Shown one piece after another: positions 1,398 through 5,639 of a stretch of 5,740 bases of DNA (position 1 is its first letter; each line of letters begins with the position of its first letter). Source of the stretch: an uncultured Clostridia bacterium (lineage in GTDB: Bacteria > Bacillota_A > Clostridia > Oscillospirales > Oscillospiraceae); the NCBI GenBank assembly GCA_947167435.1, contig CAMVIC010000115.1:1-5740 (forward strand), read 5' to 3'. The position numbers were made by a program, and so were the translations under genes. Below the pieces are notes generated by a model. The model searched no databases and was not told the DNA's origin. It worked only from the letters and a program-made list of their open reading frames with translations.

Positions 1398-1426
1398 TTG
1401 ACACGGTGTCAGAATGGTGGTATAGT
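1398..1426 (+). promoter_or_regulatory. Sigma-A promoter of the rightward redox operon
   Basis: TTGACA (1398-1403) is followed after 17 bases by TATAGT (1421-1426), a perfect -35 and a 5/6 -10 box, predicting transcription start near 1433. This should be a strong promoter when free. Its -35 box lies inside the first operator palindrome, and the predicted start lies at the edge of the second. The -35 is back to back with the -35 of the leftward promoter, ten bases apart. Confidence 0.85.
1399..1411. promoter_or_regulatory. Probable TetR-family operator site 1
   Basis: TGACACGGTGTCA is a perfect 6-1-6 palindrome overlapping the -35 box of the rightward promoter. With site 2 it forms a larger inverted repeat (1398-1414 with 1430-1446; 16 of 17 bases match). 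The nearest candidate protein is the TetR regulator encoded third in the operon. Binding here would block polymerase. That this protein binds it is inferred from position and symmetry. Confidence 0.75.
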
Positions 1427-1432
1427 ACGTTC

Positions 1433-1445
1433 TGACATCGTGTCA
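1433..1445. promoter_or_regulatory. Probable TetR-family operator site 2
   Basis: TGACATCGTGTCA keeps the TGACA-N3-TGTCA core of site 1, with one changed base that breaks the sixth pair. It covers the predicted transcription start. The centres of sites 1 and 2 are 34 bases apart, a little over three helical turns. Two dimers could therefore sit on roughly the same face of the DNA and enclose the -10 box. Confidence 0.75.
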
Positions 1446-1472
1446 ATATGTTTTTTGAAGGGAAGCGGACGC

Positions 1473-1568
1473 ATGAAAAAGAATACGGGCGCGCAGCTGG
1501 CGCTGTATCTGGCCTTCGTGATGGGCTTTTCCTGCCTGACGGGCATCGTTGTGAACCTTATTCTTTAG
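1473..1568 (+). CDS. 31-residue single-pass membrane peptide, first in the operon
   Basis: ATG at 1473 is preceded by GAAGGGAAG (1458-1466), a moderate ribosome site. The frame ends at TAG 1566-1568. The product begins MKKNTGAQ and then has about 23 mostly hydrophobic residues (9-31), enough for one membrane span with a positive, cytoplasmic N terminus. It is the first gene after the predicted transcription start (leader about 40 bases) and ends 24 bases before the flavoprotein gene. I do not recognise the family. It might anchor or modulate one of the operon's redox proteins, or be a translated leader. An overlapping frame starting at ATG 1448 is less convincing because its ATG has no ribosome site and its product lacks coherent features. 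Confidence 0.6.
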   Translation: MKKNTGAQLALYLAFVMGFSCLTGIVVNLIL

Positions 1569-1592
1569 GAAACGCTTCAGGAGAAACGGAAT

Positions 1593-2129
1593 ATGAGAAT
1601 TCTTGTTTTAAACGGCAGCCCCAACCAAAACGGCTCCACCCGCCTGCTGATTGACGGCTTTACGCGGGGCGCGGGGGAAGCCGGGCACAGGGTAAGCGTG
1701 CTGGACACGGCCCACATGAACGTCCATCCCTGCACGGGCTGTATCGCCTGCGGCTATGACGGCACCTGCGTGCAGAAGGACGACATGGAGCAGATCCGCA
1801 AAGCGGTCATGGAGTCGGACATGCTTGTTTTTGCAACGCCGCTGTACTTCTTCGGCTTTTCGGCGCAGCTCAAAACGGTACTTGATCGCTTCTGCGCCTT
1901 CAGCAGCCGGGTCAATATGCGGAACATGAAGTCCGCCTTCCTTTCCGTTGCCTGGAATGACGACGACTGGACCATGGACGCCGTCCGGGAGCATTATCTG
2001 ACCCTGGTGCGCTATCTGAACCTGCGGGACATGGGCATGGTGCTGGGCACGGGCTGCGGCACCCCGTCCATGACCAGGCGCAGCCGCTTTCCCCAGGCCG
2101 CCTGCGAGCTGGGGAAGAGCCTGAAATAG
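1593..2129 (+). CDS. NAD(P)H-dependent FMN reductase / iron-sulfur flavoprotein-like protein
   Basis: This 178-residue flavodoxin-fold protein starts at ATG 1593, eight bases after AGGAGA (1579-1584). The N terminus MRILVLNGSPNQNGSTR gives the first beta strand and the FMN-phosphate loop (residues 7-17) of the FMN_red family (PF03358). ATPLYFFGFSAQLKTVLDRF (81-100) is the usual second flavin-contact segment. Between them is CTGCIACGYDGTC (Cys47, 50, 53, 59), spaced C-x2-C-x2-C-x5-C, followed by the family's KDDM. That spacing fits the compact motif that binds a [4Fe-4S] cluster in archaeal iron-sulfur flavoproteins. Cluster binding is therefore plausible, but related flavodoxin-family proteins with similar motifs are mostly untested. 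Likely role: cytoplasmic electron transfer from a carrier or NAD(P)H to a small acceptor such as a quinone. It is followed 14 bases later by the TetR gene. Confidence 0.85.
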   Translation: MRILVLNGSPNQNGSTRLLIDGFTRGAGEAGHRVSVLDTAHMNVHPCTGCIACGYDGTCVQKDDMEQIRKAVMESDMLVFATPLYFFGFSAQLKTVLDRFCAFSSRVNMRNMKSAFLSVAWNDDDWTMDAVREHYLTLVRYLNLRDMGMVLGTGCGTPSMTRRSRFPQAACELGKSLK

Positions 2130-2143
2130 AGAGGAGAAAAGCC

Positions 2144-2773
2144 ATGCCGAAAGGATCCGCGGAACTGACAAACGCGCGGCGGGAGGAAATCCTGGCCGCC
2201 TGCCGGAAGCTGTATGAAAGCCTGAGCTTCCGGGAAATCACCCTCAAGGAAATCGGGCGGCAGACCTCCTTCACCCGCACCTCCATTTACAATTACTTCG
2301 AGACGAAGGAAGAAATCTTTCTCGCCCTGTTTCAGCGGGAATACGAGCTGTTTGCGGAAGAGCTGGACGCGCTGTGCAGGCAGAAGGCGGCGCTGTCCCT
2401 TGACGAGCTGGCCGCGGAACTGGCTCACGCGCTGGATAACCGGCCCCTGATGCTGAAGCTGCTGAGCATGAACCTCTATGACATGGAAGCAAACTCCCGC
2501 ATGGAGCGTCTGGTGGAATTCAAAACCGCCTACGGGGCATCGAAGGACGCCCTGGACCGCTGCCTCGTCAGGTTTCTGCCCGGACTTGGGGAAGAAGGCC
2601 GGCAGACCTTTCTGTATGCCTTTCTGCCCTTCGTCTACGGCCTGTACCCCTATACCGTCGTGACGGACAAGCAGCGGCAGGCCATGGAGGAGGCCGGGAT
2701 TTCCTACGTCTACATGAGCACCTATGAAATGGCATATGCCTTTATCCGTACCATGCTGGGAGGCTTGCAATGA
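2144..2773 (+). CDS. TetR/AcrR family transcriptional regulator
   Basis: The gene encodes 209 residues from ATG 2144, with GAGGAG at 2131-2136. The N-terminal domain is a classic TetR helix-turn-helix: REEILAACRKLYES (13-26), then REITLKEIGRQTSFTRTSIYNYFETKEEIF (about 30-59), where TRTSIYNYF is the recognition helix and its flank. The remaining 150 residues form the ligand and dimer domain, which is variable and gives no clear inducer. It resembles the clostridial TetR group with a TetR_C_34-type C-terminal domain, from memory only. Its place in the operon behind a promoter with two TGACA-N3-TGTCA palindromes strongly suggests autorepression released by a small molecule. The stop overlaps the next start (ATGA), implying translational coupling with the monooxygenase-like gene. 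Confidence 0.93.
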   Translation: MPKGSAELTNARREEILAACRKLYESLSFREITLKEIGRQTSFTRTSIYNYFETKEEIFLALFQREYELFAEELDALCRQKAALSLDELAAELAHALDNRPLMLKLLSMNLYDMEANSRMERLVEFKTAYGASKDALDRCLVRFLPGLGEEGRQTFLYAFLPFVYGLYPYTVVTDKQRQAMEEAGISYVYMSTYEMAYAFIRTMLGGLQ

Positions 2774-3099
2774 TTACCGTAAATCTTTATTACACCGGGA
2801 TAAACGGCGCGGCCCGCGCCTTTGCGGAGGAAATGGTCCGCAGCGGCCTGGTCTCCGCCATCCGCGCGGAAGCGGGCAATTTACGCTATGAGTACTTTTT
2901 CCCCATGGACGATGCGGAGACCGTGCTGCTCATCGACCAGTGGCGGGATCAGGCCGCCATCGACGCCCACCACGCCTCGCCCATGATGGGCCGCATCGCC
3001 GCACTCCGGGAAACCTATGATCTGCACATGAGGGTGGAACGCTTTGTCTCCGACGACGCGGGGCTTCCGGAGCAGGACATGAAGTTTATCAAACGCTGA
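2770..3099 (+). CDS. Antibiotic biosynthesis monooxygenase (ABM) domain protein, quinol-monooxygenase-like
   Basis: This 109-residue protein overlaps the tetR stop by four bases (ATGA), with GGGAGG a few bases upstream inside tetR. It shows the ABM ferredoxin-like fold pattern: a first strand ITVNLYYTG (2-10), a helix with AARAFAEEMV (15-24), then GNLRYEYFFPMDDAETVLLIDQW (about 36-58), and the characteristic AAIDAHHASPMM (63-74) that packs over the active pocket. Family members work as dimers without metal or added cofactor, for example the quinol monooxygenase YgiN, or degrade heme in the IsdG group. The conserved AIDAHHAS region fits the YgiN-like side. A cytoplasmic role on a quinol or polyphenol is the best guess. 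In a strict anaerobe it may act as something other than an oxygen-using monooxygenase. Confidence 0.85.
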   Translation: MITVNLYYTGINGAARAFAEEMVRSGLVSAIRAEAGNLRYEYFFPMDDAETVLLIDQWRDQAAIDAHHASPMMGRIAALRETYDLHMRVERFVSDDAGLPEQDMKFIKR

Positions 3100-3111
3100 G
3101 GAGGATACGGA

Positions 3112-3867
3112 ATGAACAGGAAAATCACACAGACAGCCGGGCGAAGCCAGCTGGGCGAGTTCGCCCCGATGTTTGCCCATCTCAACGACGACGTGCTCTT
3201 CGGGGAAGTCTGGAACGAGGAGGCCATCGACGTCAAAACCAAGTGCATCATCACCGTGGTGTCTCTGATGGCCTCCGGCATCACCGATTCCTCCCTGAGC
3301 TATCATCTGCAGAATGCGAAAAACAACGGCGTGACCAGGGAGGAGATCGCCGCCATCATCACCCACGCCACCATGTATGTGGGCTGGCCCAAGGGCTGGG
3401 CCGTGTTCCGCCAGGCCAAAGAGATCTGGAACGAGAGCGCACCTGCAAAAAGCGAAAAGGATGCCTATCAAAGCAGCATCTTTTTCCCCATCGGCGAGGC
3501 GAATCCCTACGGGCAGTTCTTTGTGGGGCAGAGCTATCTTGCCCCCGTCTCCACCGAGCAGGTGCCGGTTTTCAACGTGACCTTCGAGCCCGGCTGCCGC
3601 AACAATTGGCACGTTCATCACGCCACAGCCGGCGGCGGGCAGATGCTCATCTGCGTGGGCGGCCGCGGCTGGTATCAGGAGTGGGGCAAGGCGCCCTTGG
3701 AGATGACTCCCGGCACCGTGGTAAACATCCCGCCCAACGTGAAGCACTGGCACGGCGCCGCGGCGGATTCCTGGTTTTCCCACCTGGCCGTTGAGGTCGG
3801 CGGTGAGAACTGCGCCAACGAGTGGCTGGAGCCGGTGTCCCAGGACGATTACAACAAACTGAAATAA
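3112..3867 (+). CDS. Carboxymuconolactone decarboxylase (CMD)-cupin fusion protein
   Basis: The protein has 251 residues; its start is preceded by GAGGAGG, 12 bases after the previous stop. Residues about 15-107 are a CMD/AhpD-like helical domain, with TKCIITVVSLMASGITDS (43-60), the histidine in SYHL (65), and GVTREEIAAIITHATMYVGWP (73-93). It lacks the CxxC peroxidase pair of AhpD; Cys45 is the only cysteine in the domain. Residues about 150-232 are a cupin barrel. The first motif GCRNNWHVHH (161-170) gives His167 and His169, Gln177 stands where many cupins have a glutamate ligand, and the second motif VKHWHGAAADSW gives His212 and His214. Metal binding is thus plausible. Fusions of this layout occur beside flavodoxins and reductases in Clostridia and are generally uncharacterised. 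It likely acts on a ring or keto compound in the same pathway as the ABM protein. No signal peptide is present. Confidence 0.9.
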   Translation: MNRKITQTAGRSQLGEFAPMFAHLNDDVLFGEVWNEEAIDVKTKCIITVVSLMASGITDSSLSYHLQNAKNNGVTREEIAAIITHATMYVGWPKGWAVFRQAKEIWNESAPAKSEKDAYQSSIFFPIGEANPYGQFFVGQSYLAPVSTEQVPVFNVTFEPGCRNNWHVHHATAGGGQMLICVGGRGWYQEWGKAPLEMTPGTVVNIPPNVKHWHGAAADSWFSHLAVEVGGENCANEWLEPVSQDDYNKLK

Positions 3868-3883
3868 AAAGGAGAACAGAAAC

Positions 3884-4363
3884 ATGAACAAACTGGTAGC
3901 CTATTTTTCCGCCAGCGGCAGCACCGAAAAGCTGGCGCAGACCCTGGCCGCCGCAGCGGACGCGGCGCTGTATGAGATCAGGCCCCAAGTCCCCTATGAG
4001 CGGCGGGACCTGAACTGGATGGACAAGAAGTCCCGCAGCACCGTGGAGATGCAGGACCCCGCCTGCCGTCCCGCGCTGGCCGATACCGCGGCCCCGCTTG
4101 CCCCGGTCGACGTGGTTTTCCTGGGCTTTCCCATCTGGTGGTACCGGGAGCCCAGCATCATCGACAGCTTCCTGGAGGCCTATGACTTCTCCGGCAAGAC
4201 CGTCGTGCCTTTCTGCACTTCCGGCGGCAGCCAGCTGGGAGAAGGCCAGGGCCGCATTGAAACGCTGGCAAAGGGCGCAAAGGTTCTGCCCGGCAAGCGC
4301 TTTGCCGCCCGCGCCTCCGAGACTGAGCTGAAGGCCTGGATCGCCGGGCTGGGGTTGGATTGA
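3884..4363 (+). CDS. Cytoplasmic flavodoxin
   Basis: This 159-residue flavodoxin starts at ATG 3884 behind AAGGAG. NKLVAYFSASGSTEKLAQ (2-19) contains the first strand and the FMN phosphate loop SASGSTE. GFPIWWYREP (81-90) is the loop that stacks on the isoalloxazine ring, with tryptophans 85 and 86. PFCTSGGSQLGEG (109-121) is the second flavin-contact loop. RRDLNWMDKKSRSTVEM (40-56) is typical of the clostridial Flavodoxin_4-type group. It should carry electrons between the operon's enzymes and a cellular reductase. It is clearly related to the next gene, whose mature domain shares PIWW, PFCTSG and the D-L-N-(W/Y) segment. The two probably arose by tandem duplication. The stop lies 14 bases before the next ATG. 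Confidence 0.92.
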   Translation: MNKLVAYFSASGSTEKLAQTLAAAADAALYEIRPQVPYERRDLNWMDKKSRSTVEMQDPACRPALADTAAPLAPVDVVFLGFPIWWYREPSIIDSFLEAYDFSGKTVVPFCTSGGSQLGEGQGRIETLAKGAKVLPGKRFAARASETELKAWIAGLGLD

Positions 4364-4377
4364 GCGGGGCCCAGACC

Positions 4378-5052
4378 ATGAAAAGGCTGATTTCCGTCTG
4401 CCTTTTGCTGATCCTGGCCCTGTCCGGGGCCGGCTGCGGCAGCGCGCCGGCCCCGGCGGCGGCCACCGAAGCCCCTGCCGAACCCTCCGAGCCGGTCCCT
4501 GTCGAATCGTCCGAGCCGGTCCCTGCCGAGCCCGCCGAACCGGAGACGACCCCGCAGCCCGAGGATGCGCCCGAAGCCGAAGCCCAAAGCAGCGTCCTGG
4601 TGGTCTATTTCTCCGGCACCGGCAACACACGACGGATTGCGGAGCGGATCGCGGCCATTACGGGCGCTGATCTGGAAGAGATTCTCCCGGTCCGGCCCTA
4701 TACCGAGGAGGACCTGAATTACAACGACCCCTCCACGCGCGCCACAGTGGAGCAGAACACCCCCGATGCCCGGCCGGAGATTGCCAATGAGATCTCCCTG
4801 GACGGCTATACCACCGTGTATCTGGGCTATCCCATCTGGTGGGGACAGGCTCCGCGCATTCTGAGCACCTTTGTCGGAAGCCACGACTTCACCGGAATCA
4901 CCGTCATCCCCTTCTGCACCTCCGGCAGCAGCGGCGCCGGCAGCACCGGCGAAACTCTGGGCGAGCAGGCCGGAACCGGAGACTTCCGTTCCTCCACCCG
5001 TATGAGCGCGGACATCTCCGACAGCGAGCTGCAGAGCTGGCTCGGTCAGTAA
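4378..5052 (+). CDS. Flavodoxin with lipoprotein-type signal peptide and proline-rich linker
   Basis: I chose ATG 4378 because it starts a clean export signal, MKRLISVCLLLILALSGAGC, with positive n-region, hydrophobic core and Cys20. A TTG at 4360 in frame would add six residues ahead of the signal and is less likely. The lipobox is imperfect, since Gly rather than Leu stands at -3, although the cysteine is followed by GS as in many clostridial lipoproteins. Residues 22-70 are a flexible Pro/Glu/Ala linker containing the near repeat SEPVPVES/SEPVPAEP. Residues 72-224 are a full flavodoxin domain: FSGTGNTRRIAERIA (78-92) for the phosphate loop, GYPIWWGQAPR (150-160) and PFCTSGSSGAGST (178-190). 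It is probably anchored on the outer face of the cytoplasmic membrane, where it could exchange electrons with extracellular quinones, metals or membrane partners. How it obtains FMN outside is unknown. It is the last gene of the operon. Confidence 0.87.
   Translation: MKRLISVCLLLILALSGAGCGSAPAPAAATEAPAEPSEPVPVESSEPVPAEPAEPETTPQPEDAPEAEAQSSVLVVYFSGTGNTRRIAERIAAITGADLEEILPVRPYTEEDLNYNDPSTRATVEQNTPDARPEIANEISLDGYTTVYLGYPIWWGQAPRILSTFVGSHDFTGITVIPFCTSGSSGAGSTGETLGEQAGTGDFRSSTRMSADISDSELQSWLGQ
4486..4525 (+). repeat. Short tandem repeat in the lipoprotein linker
   Basis: The 16 bases TCCGAGCCGGTCCCTG occur at 4486-4501 and again at 4510-4525, a period of 24 bases (eight codons), encoding the repeated SEPVP. 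This is a small internal duplication in a low-constraint linker. Its copy number could vary between strains. Confidence 0.8.
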
Positions 5053-5143: not shown

Positions 5144-5198
5144 GAATGCCTGCACCGGCGGCGGTCCTCCGCCGCCGGTGCAGGCATTCTTTCTTATT
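5144..5198. terminator. Strong bidirectional terminator between convergent transcripts
   Basis: A perfect 21-bp stem (5144-5164 with 5169-5189) closes a TCCT loop. Rightward it is followed by TTTCTTATT. Leftward it is followed by CTGTTTTTATCCC, a clean five-T tract. It lies 91 bases after the lipoprotein stop and about 45 bases past the HxlR gene's end, so it can end both transcripts. Bases 5053-5143 between stop and hairpin contain no recognisable gene. Confidence 0.9.
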
Positions 5199-5243: not shown

Positions 5244-5639
5244 TCACAGGGTCTCCTTCTCCCCGTAGAGCTCCTTCTCGTGCTGAAAGCCCCAGTTCAT
5301 GATGGCATAGCACACAGGCAGCAGGTCACGGCCCATCTCGGTCAGCGAATACTCCACGTGGGGCGGGATCTCGTTGAACTGCTGCCGGCTGATGAGACCG
5401 TCCTCCTCCAACTCCCGCAGGGCCTTGGTCAGCATGGTGTTGGTGATGCCGGGGAGGTCCTTCCTCAGCTGGCCGAAGCGGACGGTGTCATAGATGCACA
5501 TTTCATACATCAGCCGGGATTTCCACCGCCCCTGCAGCATCACCAGAAGCGGGGTGACGGGGCAGTTGCCGTCCCGGGTCACGATGCCCTTTTTCACGTT
5601 GACCAAGTACTCCTCATAGCTCATATACTCACGCTTCAT
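5244..5639 (-). CDS. HxlR-family winged helix-turn-helix regulator
   Basis: The 131-residue protein starts at ATG 5639-5637 with GGAGGGG about eight bases upstream. It ends at TGA. Residues 25-125 form a typical HxlR domain: NCPVTPLLVMLQGRWKSRLMYE (25-46), with the family's CP...W-K signature, then RFGQLRKDLPGITNTMLTKALRELEEDGLISR (about 54-85) as recognition helix and start of the wing, and VEYSLTEMGRDLLPVC as the second half. Cys26 occupies the conserved cysteine position that serves as thiol switch in redox-sensing relatives such as YodB and HypR. Cys48 and Cys110 are also present. It may sense electrophiles or disulfide stress, but many HxlR proteins with this cysteine are untested. It is co-transcribed with the upstream leftward gene (11-base overlap). 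Its target is not evident. Confidence 0.92.
   Translation of the reverse strand: MKREYMSYEEYLVNVKKGIVTRDGNCPVTPLLVMLQGRWKSRLMYEMCIYDTVRFGQLRKDLPGITNTMLTKALRELEEDGLISRQQFNEIPPHVEYSLTEMGRDLLPVCYAIMNWGFQHEKELYGEKETL

Follow-up and report, generated by a model that had tools for sequence, protein, structure and literature searches.

A putative TetR-autorepressed redox operon of gut Clostridia with a paired operator and an apparent deletion scar

Genes of the operon

The DNA analysed here (the window) is a stretch of 5,740 nucleotides from an uncultured Clostridia bacterium of the Oscillospiraceae (contig CAMVIC010000115.1, assembly GCA_947167435.1), and it carries a cluster of redox genes that includes a gene for a TetR-family repressor. 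Seven tandem open reading frames (ORFs) on the + strand span positions 1473 to 5052, with successive gaps of 24, 14, -4, 12, 16 and 14 bases, and had been taken in a preliminary description for a seven-gene tandem operon. Six of them, fldA, tetR, abm, a CMD-cupin fusion, fldB and fldC, are true protein genes and occupy 1593-5052 (+); with gaps of at most 24 bases, a promoter and a terminator, the tandem operon stands for these six and their co-transcription is predicted, whereas the first "gene" appears to be the scar of a deletion.

fldA (1593..2129, +) encodes an FMN_red flavoprotein with a CX2CX2CX5C motif of the iron-sulfur flavoprotein (Isf) type. It is followed by tetR (2144..2773, +), a TetR_N plus TetR_C_34 repressor and predicted autoregulator; abm (2770..3099, +), whose product has the antibiotic-biosynthesis-monooxygenase fold; the CMD-cupin fusion (3112..3867, +), combining a CMD domain that lacks CxxC with a cupin that has an HxH/Q/H set; fldB (3884..4363, +), a cytoplasmic Flavodoxin_4 protein; and fldC (4378..5052, +), a Flavodoxin_4 protein and predicted lipoprotein, for which a signal peptide and a Cys were recognised by sequence inspection and the lipobox is non-canonical. 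The Pfam calls, in gene order FMN_red, TetR_N with TetR_C_34, ABM, CMD, Flavodoxin_4 and Flavodoxin_4, with Cupin_2 on the CMD-cupin protein slightly below its cut-off (26.5 bits against 27.2), agree with the three flavin proteins, ABM protein and CMD-cupin fusion described before. A strong bidirectional intrinsic terminator with a 20-pair stem (5144..5189) is common to the operon and a convergent HxlR gene.

For comparison, 80 relative TetR loci (953,909 bases in total, designated by L numbers) were used, most of which reach no more than 7 kb to either side. Close homologues came from assemblies named as Oscillospiraceae, Clostridiales or Eubacteriales, many of them from the ruminant gut (goat, sheep, roe deer, buffalo, yak). 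The ratio of nonsynonymous to synonymous substitution rates (dN/dS) was about 0.07-0.20 for tetR, abm, CMD-cupin, fldB and fldA of the window against L001-L003, L023 and L027, where present; for fldC it was 0.15-0.25 against L002, L023 and L027, and 0.64 against a distant fldC-like gene of L001. On the evidence of these five loci, purifying selection appears to act on all six genes. A role in anti-phage defence was rejected, as PADLOC returned no match for the six operon proteins, and a search of the window for Rfam families and tRNAs found none.

The paired operator and its regulon

Upstream of the operon lies a sigma-70-type promoter, TTGACA-17-TATAGT (1398..1426, +), which has 11 of the 12 consensus bases and a layout shared by relatives. 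Two 13-bp TGACA-N3-TGTCA sites, spaced 34 bases apart, are placed on it as predicted TetR operators: copy 1, TGACA-CGG-TGTCA (1399..1411), overlaps the -35 box, and copy 2, TGACA-TCG-TGTCA (1433..1445), stands directly past the -10 box. Since tetR is itself a gene of the operon and a conserved palindrome overlies the promoter, the locus has the arrangement of a TetR-autorepressed operon, in which TetR would repress from the predicted operators and be relieved by a ligand. Because the operator pair is conserved, the earlier claim of a single TetR-regulated promoter driving the predicted operon is well supported.

The exact pair is found at tetR in the window and in 62 of the 80 relative loci, and in 15 of the remaining 18 the pair carries a single mismatch (in L046 it sits downstream of tetR); that of L057 has two mismatches, and in L009 and L054 no pair occurs. 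Apart from the interval from -4.0 to +0.9 kb around tetR, in which L075 has one extra exact pair at -2.7 kb, no exact pair with a spacing of 30-40 occurs in the 953,909 bases. A scan of 38 genomes, those of 38 of the 80 loci picked for spread, gave an exact pair in 33 as against none of 38 for a reversed-pattern control; the five genomes that lack it are those of L016, L064, L070, L076 and L080. Forty distinct operator places were counted in these genomes, with letters compared by eye, of which 33 are the tetR pairs and seven lie elsewhere. Four of these seven secondary sites use the same redox pool: they precede a flavodoxin and a DUF4405 gene (L112); an aldo/keto reductase (AKR), an AKR ORF running into a flavodoxin, a piece of fldA and fldB (L113); DUF362 and a fragment of fldC (L115); and fldB with an AKR (L116). 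The other three bring an esterase or export, namely an esterase-like lipoprotein in L075 and in L114, the latter assigned by likeness to L075 over the stretch compared, and a TetR remnant with a MATE pump in L111 (5515-7341). The operator pair offers a means of recognising, from sequence, a regulon of gut Clostridia whose redox genes are poorly annotated, and so of seeking its inducer directly.

Erosion behind the promoter and conservation of gene content

The first of the seven ORFs (1473..1568, +) would encode 31 amino acids and had no match in Pfam or NCBIfam. Relatives that keep the full gene set have, behind this promoter, genes for a flavin reductase (PF01613), DUF362 and an ArsP_1 permease (PF03773); their flavin-reductase gene opens with the same residues as the ORF, and the end of the permease resembles the ORF's end. 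In DNA alignments, window positions 1398-1509 match the promoter and flavin-reductase start of L023 (88%) and L027 (85%), and in the same two loci positions 1500-1570 match the permease gene's end at 82%. The 10 nucleotides shared by the two alignments, GCGCTGTATC (1500..1509, +), are found at both deletion ends in L023 and L027; the copies are 2,435 bp apart in L023, likewise in L027, and the repeat falls on a codon start in the window ORF as well as in the two L023 genes. When intact genes were compared by blast in a small local database, the promoter-tetR interval of the window was found to hold flavin reductase nt 1-37 (100% with L002, E 5e-14) and permease nt 835-903 of 903 (84% with L045, E 6e-16). 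Together, the overlapping alignments, the repeat and the blast matches point to one deletion between short repeats: about 2.4 kb would have been removed, with the whole of DUF362 and all but a short end of the flavin reductase and of the permease, leaving an in-frame fusion of the flavin-reductase start (about codons 1-12) to the last 69 nt of the permease with its stop. The reading of seven genes at face value was therefore rejected, and the gene count is corrected to six.

The junction is known from one assembly of the window DNA, and blastn found no continuous match across 1500-1509 in any of the 80 loci; the deletion could be an assembly error and the ORF a chimera. This is quite improbable, given that partial deletions of the flavin-reductase gene recur at the corresponding position in six further close loci as well as in L076 and L080; the 10-nt repeat is also shorter than usual assembly k-mers. 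Among the 42 close loci (TetR identity of at least 74%), the promoter-tetR interval holds an intact flavin reductase in 15 and fragments in six (L003, L011, L020, L025, L031 and L038); in 20 the gene found no match at a threshold of E 1e-3, and the sequence of L009 is too short to be scored. The more distant L076 and L080 likewise hold partial copies. On a TetR tree of 45 rows, from which L009 (at a contig edge) and loci below 66% TetR identity were excluded, the seven remnant rows, the window included, need six changes, at least four of them forced by starred branches. The remnant label is unclustered, 143 of 500 shuffles being as low, which is what independent losses would be expected to give. 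The nearest row to the window is L001, whose flavin reductase is intact (support 83/86, not starred). The gene between this promoter and tetR has thus been eroded repeatedly, while promoter, operators and repressor persist.

Gene content was counted by tblastn. Of the close loci, 36 extend at least 2.6 kb downstream; among these, ABM was found in 35, CMD in 34, fldB in 30, cupin in 25, a lipoprotein-type flavodoxin in 10 and AKR in three. Conservation of gene order, by which the operon had been proposed to be checked, proved partial: within the close clade the TetR-ABM-CMD-flavodoxin core is retained, but not the exact set of seven genes, fldA lying directly upstream of tetR in two of the 36 and the 31-codon fusion occurring in none of the 80. 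In the 23 of 38 distant loci with at least 6 kb downstream, AKR (14), DUF362 (12) and permease (11) are followed by CMD (8), fldB (8) and ABM (5). Within -4 to +7 kb, each of the 80 loci carries at least one more of the families queried, encoded on the same strand, and the redox partners include aldo/keto reductases, flavin reductase, DUF362, DUF4405, flavodoxins and, in two of the 80, a nitroreductase. In a family sample of 200 genomes the TetR was present in 19, two being the genomes of L001 and L005; the other 17 were examined and include L117 and L118, probably the same as L032 and L034. Among these sampled loci, L131 has no labelled partner, L123 has only divergent partners, and L119 and L133 lack an exact operator site. 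CMD is encoded as a separate protein of about 110-118 amino acids without cupin, at the same operon position, in L013, L015, L018, L019, L025 and L045. A single chain of a DUF4405 membrane domain, an FGE-sulfatase-like domain and Flavodoxin_4 occurs in the same gene clusters of L019 (9108-11261, by Pfam) and L023 (9316-11511, by tblastn).

The permease of relatives also bears on whether the system might confer metal or metalloid resistance, the flavoproteins reducing an organometal(loid) and the lost permease exporting it. It belongs to PF03773 ArsP_1, with weak matches to SaoE and to a Cu/Zn efflux family, but its NCBIfam scores of 60.4 and 99 bits are far below the cut-offs of 325 and 300. 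Further, it has been lost from the window and lies upstream of tetR in four of the 36 close loci, though downstream in 11 of the 23 distant ones, and a resistance function is considered very unlikely.

Enzymes, regulator and proposed role

The CMD domain has a single cysteine, Cys45, and keeps His65, with TDSSLSYH at the AhpD CxxC site. T58 and S61 stand where AhpD has CxxC, the positions being set by what we take to be the AhpD register, with CxxC ahead of a His; an AhpD-type CMD peroxidase is not recognised. The cupin resembles 2f4p and 4bif, and its His167, His169, Gln177 and His212 align with cupins 4bif and 4uxa, with each residue retained by 97% or more of the 38 full-length rows. It has the HxH...Q...H ligand set of GtHNL-type (R)-mandelonitrile lyase, presumably the metal-site ligands of the solved cupin relatives; a hydroxynitrile lyase label was rejected on NF049940 (NCBIfam), at 107.6 bits against a cut-off of 140. 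In fldA, CTGCIACGYDGTC fits CX2CX2CX5-7C, given in an excerpt of PMC3164229 as the compact motif of Isf proteins; on this motif, carried by an FMN_red fold, rests its likeness to them, and a bound [4Fe-4S] cluster and FMN would be expected of such a protein.

The lack of CxxC, together with the resemblance of the CMD domain to PcaC-type proteins, would suit a catabolic or cometabolic operon converting a specific plant aromatic or alicyclic compound, with CMD as a true decarboxylase-type enzyme and cupin and ABM acting on ring intermediates. ABM and cupin folds do occur in aromatic pathways. Such an operon is nevertheless rather unlikely, since the PcaC model TIGR02425 (NCBIfam) gives 52.9 bits against a cut-off of 155.7, and since the operator persists across loci whose gene content differs greatly, a pattern more in keeping with a stress regulon than with a fixed pathway (in these counts only the query families were labelled, and catabolic neighbours were not systematically searched). 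A defence against oxygen or peroxide, in which the Fe-S flavoprotein and flavodoxins would reduce O2 or peroxide and CMD would be a peroxidase, is judged unlikely as well. The Isf motif of fldA speaks for it, one paper, by its title, reportedly treating Isf with oxygen and hydrogen peroxide, but T58 and S61 at the presumed CxxC positions speak against it. Peroxiredoxin, rubrerythrin and catalase were absent from the 19 partner proteins searched with Pfam, the other neighbours not being annotated. In excerpts of the papers concerned, a Burkholderia CMD gene rises under HOCl (PMC7464077) and a Legionella YraC homologue has peroxidase activity (PMC4776306), which favour such a defence.

Sensing by the repressor was considered from its cysteines and from a structure model (mean pLDDT 79.3). 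A NemR-type thiol sensor has a conserved reactive cysteine in its ligand domain. In TetR, Cys20 is kept in 79 of the 79 rows with a letter and lies in helix 1, in the DNA-binding half; Cys78 (42 of 81 rows) and Cys140 (48 of 81) are not conserved. Reading the ligand from the structure was rejected, as the model matched generic TetR folds.

Several known systems resemble the operon in part, as far as the excerpts of their descriptions go. The NemR-NemA-GloA system of E. coli responds to quinones, glyoxals and N-ethylmaleimide (PMC7464077) and, like the window, places a TetR repressor over redox genes, there a reductase and a glyoxalase; its enzymes are others, and the TetR studied here lacks the conserved ligand-domain cysteine. 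In B. subtilis the CMD gene yraC, under AdhR, is induced by methylglyoxal or formaldehyde, the role of YraC being undefined there (PMC4776306). This likewise puts a CMD-family protein into an inducible carbonyl-electrophile response, but the regulator is of the MerR family (NmlR), the partners are an alcohol dehydrogenase and a cysteine proteinase, and flavodoxin, cupin and ABM are not named in the excerpt. ECF41 sigma factors adjoin CMD/oxidoreductase/epimerase (COE) genes, occasionally cupins, and recognise TGTCACA-n16-CGTC, usually at one target gene or operon (PMC3426412). There a sigma factor takes the place of TetR, and TetR and HxlR are the only regulators that Pfam recognised in the window.

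Relatives of CMD-cupin matched 123 plasmid records, of which five regions were examined (Bacteroides, Selenomonas, Lactiplantibacillus, Loigolactobacillus, Enterococcus; 51-63% identity). In all but Loigolactobacillus, CMD-cupin is adjoined by a flavodoxin or NAD(P)H oxidoreductase, AKR, SDR, flavin reductase or DUF362. The regions differ from the window in that three encode CMD and cupin by separate genes, none has an annotated ABM or TetR, and AraC, MerR, MarR or LysR genes lie nearby in four, the Selenomonas cluster having none of these. The MerR-type regulators by CMD-cupin in the three lactic-acid or enterococcal plasmids match NmlR best, below its cut-off. Aldehyde sensing through these neighbours was not confirmed, in view of the sub-cut-off scores and the lack of a sensing cysteine. 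In a brewery Loigolactobacillus plasmid (L137), CMD, cupin, an NmlR-like MerR and an SMR pump adjoin.

With some reserve, we think it probable that the locus is a modular, TetR-autorepressed operon for reductive defence, of gut Oscillospiraceae and related Clostridia, whose upstream module has been lost by deletion. It would belong to a known kind, TetR-controlled electrophile and redox defence, here with a corrected gene count and a useful operator signature. The likeliest target would be carbonyl or quinone-like electrophiles, because of the CMD and NemR precedents and the redox neighbours of the plasmid CMD-cupin genes. The redox or electrophile role proposed in the preliminary description is thus plausible from the partners (AKR, flavin reductase, DUF362, DUF4405, flavodoxins, nitroreductase, MATE pump), although ABM and flavodoxin folds alone do not point to quinones or phenolics. 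In the resting state, TetR would sit on the two operators straddling the promoter; a toxic compound would bind TetR and cause its release, the most likely candidates being carbonyl or quinone-like electrophiles of the plant diet. Cytoplasmic fldA, of the Fe-S type, and fldB would then supply low-potential electrons for reducing the compound or for repairing what it has oxidised, the lipoprotein flavodoxin fldC might do likewise outside the membrane, and CMD-cupin and ABM may act on carbonyl, enol or phenolic intermediates. In relatives the flavin reductase, DUF362 and ArsP-type permease would add an upstream module, apparently lost here between the 10-nt repeats.

Several observations weigh against this proposal. 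TetR has no conserved cysteine in its ligand domain and its fold search gave only generic TetR structures (best 2zcx, 22% identity); in the alignments of the plasmid MerR regulators, the sensing position and its surroundings lack a cysteine. The lipoprotein-type flavodoxin and the cupin are labelled in only 10 and 25 of the 36 close loci, the window itself has no AKR or nitroreductase, and the possible assembly error at the deletion counts here as well. The literature covered, with most subscription journals outside it, gave no inducer, transcript or enzyme datum for the operon; searches on gene combinations gave no title or abstract start that describes it, and no paper for ABM, CMD and flavodoxin together. 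A bolder idea, which is tentative and in our view somewhat doubtful, is that the paired operator marks an undescribed clostridial regulon building an inducible two-sided electron-transfer chain (cytoplasmic flavodoxins, a DUF4405 membrane protein, secreted DUF362 and lipoprotein flavodoxins) that would reduce a dietary xenobiotic outside the cell, its cargo genes being gained and eroded fast behind a fixed promoter.

Other features of the window flank the operon. A divergent ATC_hydrolase gene (700-1305, -; PF14196 in Pfam, E 1.2e-33) has its own promoter-like site, TTGACA-17-TACAGT, 11 bp from operator 1; its membership of the system was rejected, as the query matched none of the 80 loci and, among 81 sequences, only the window. 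The convergent HxlR regulator (5244-5639, -) has as its nearest NCBIfam models RrpA/RrpB, named as redox, with scores far below their cut-offs. At the other end, a hairpin-rich stretch holds a 73-bp direct repeat (1-73 and 294-366, 89%); parts of 153-319 have matches in L022, L027 and L033 too, and the stretch is therefore possibly a dispersed repeat element.

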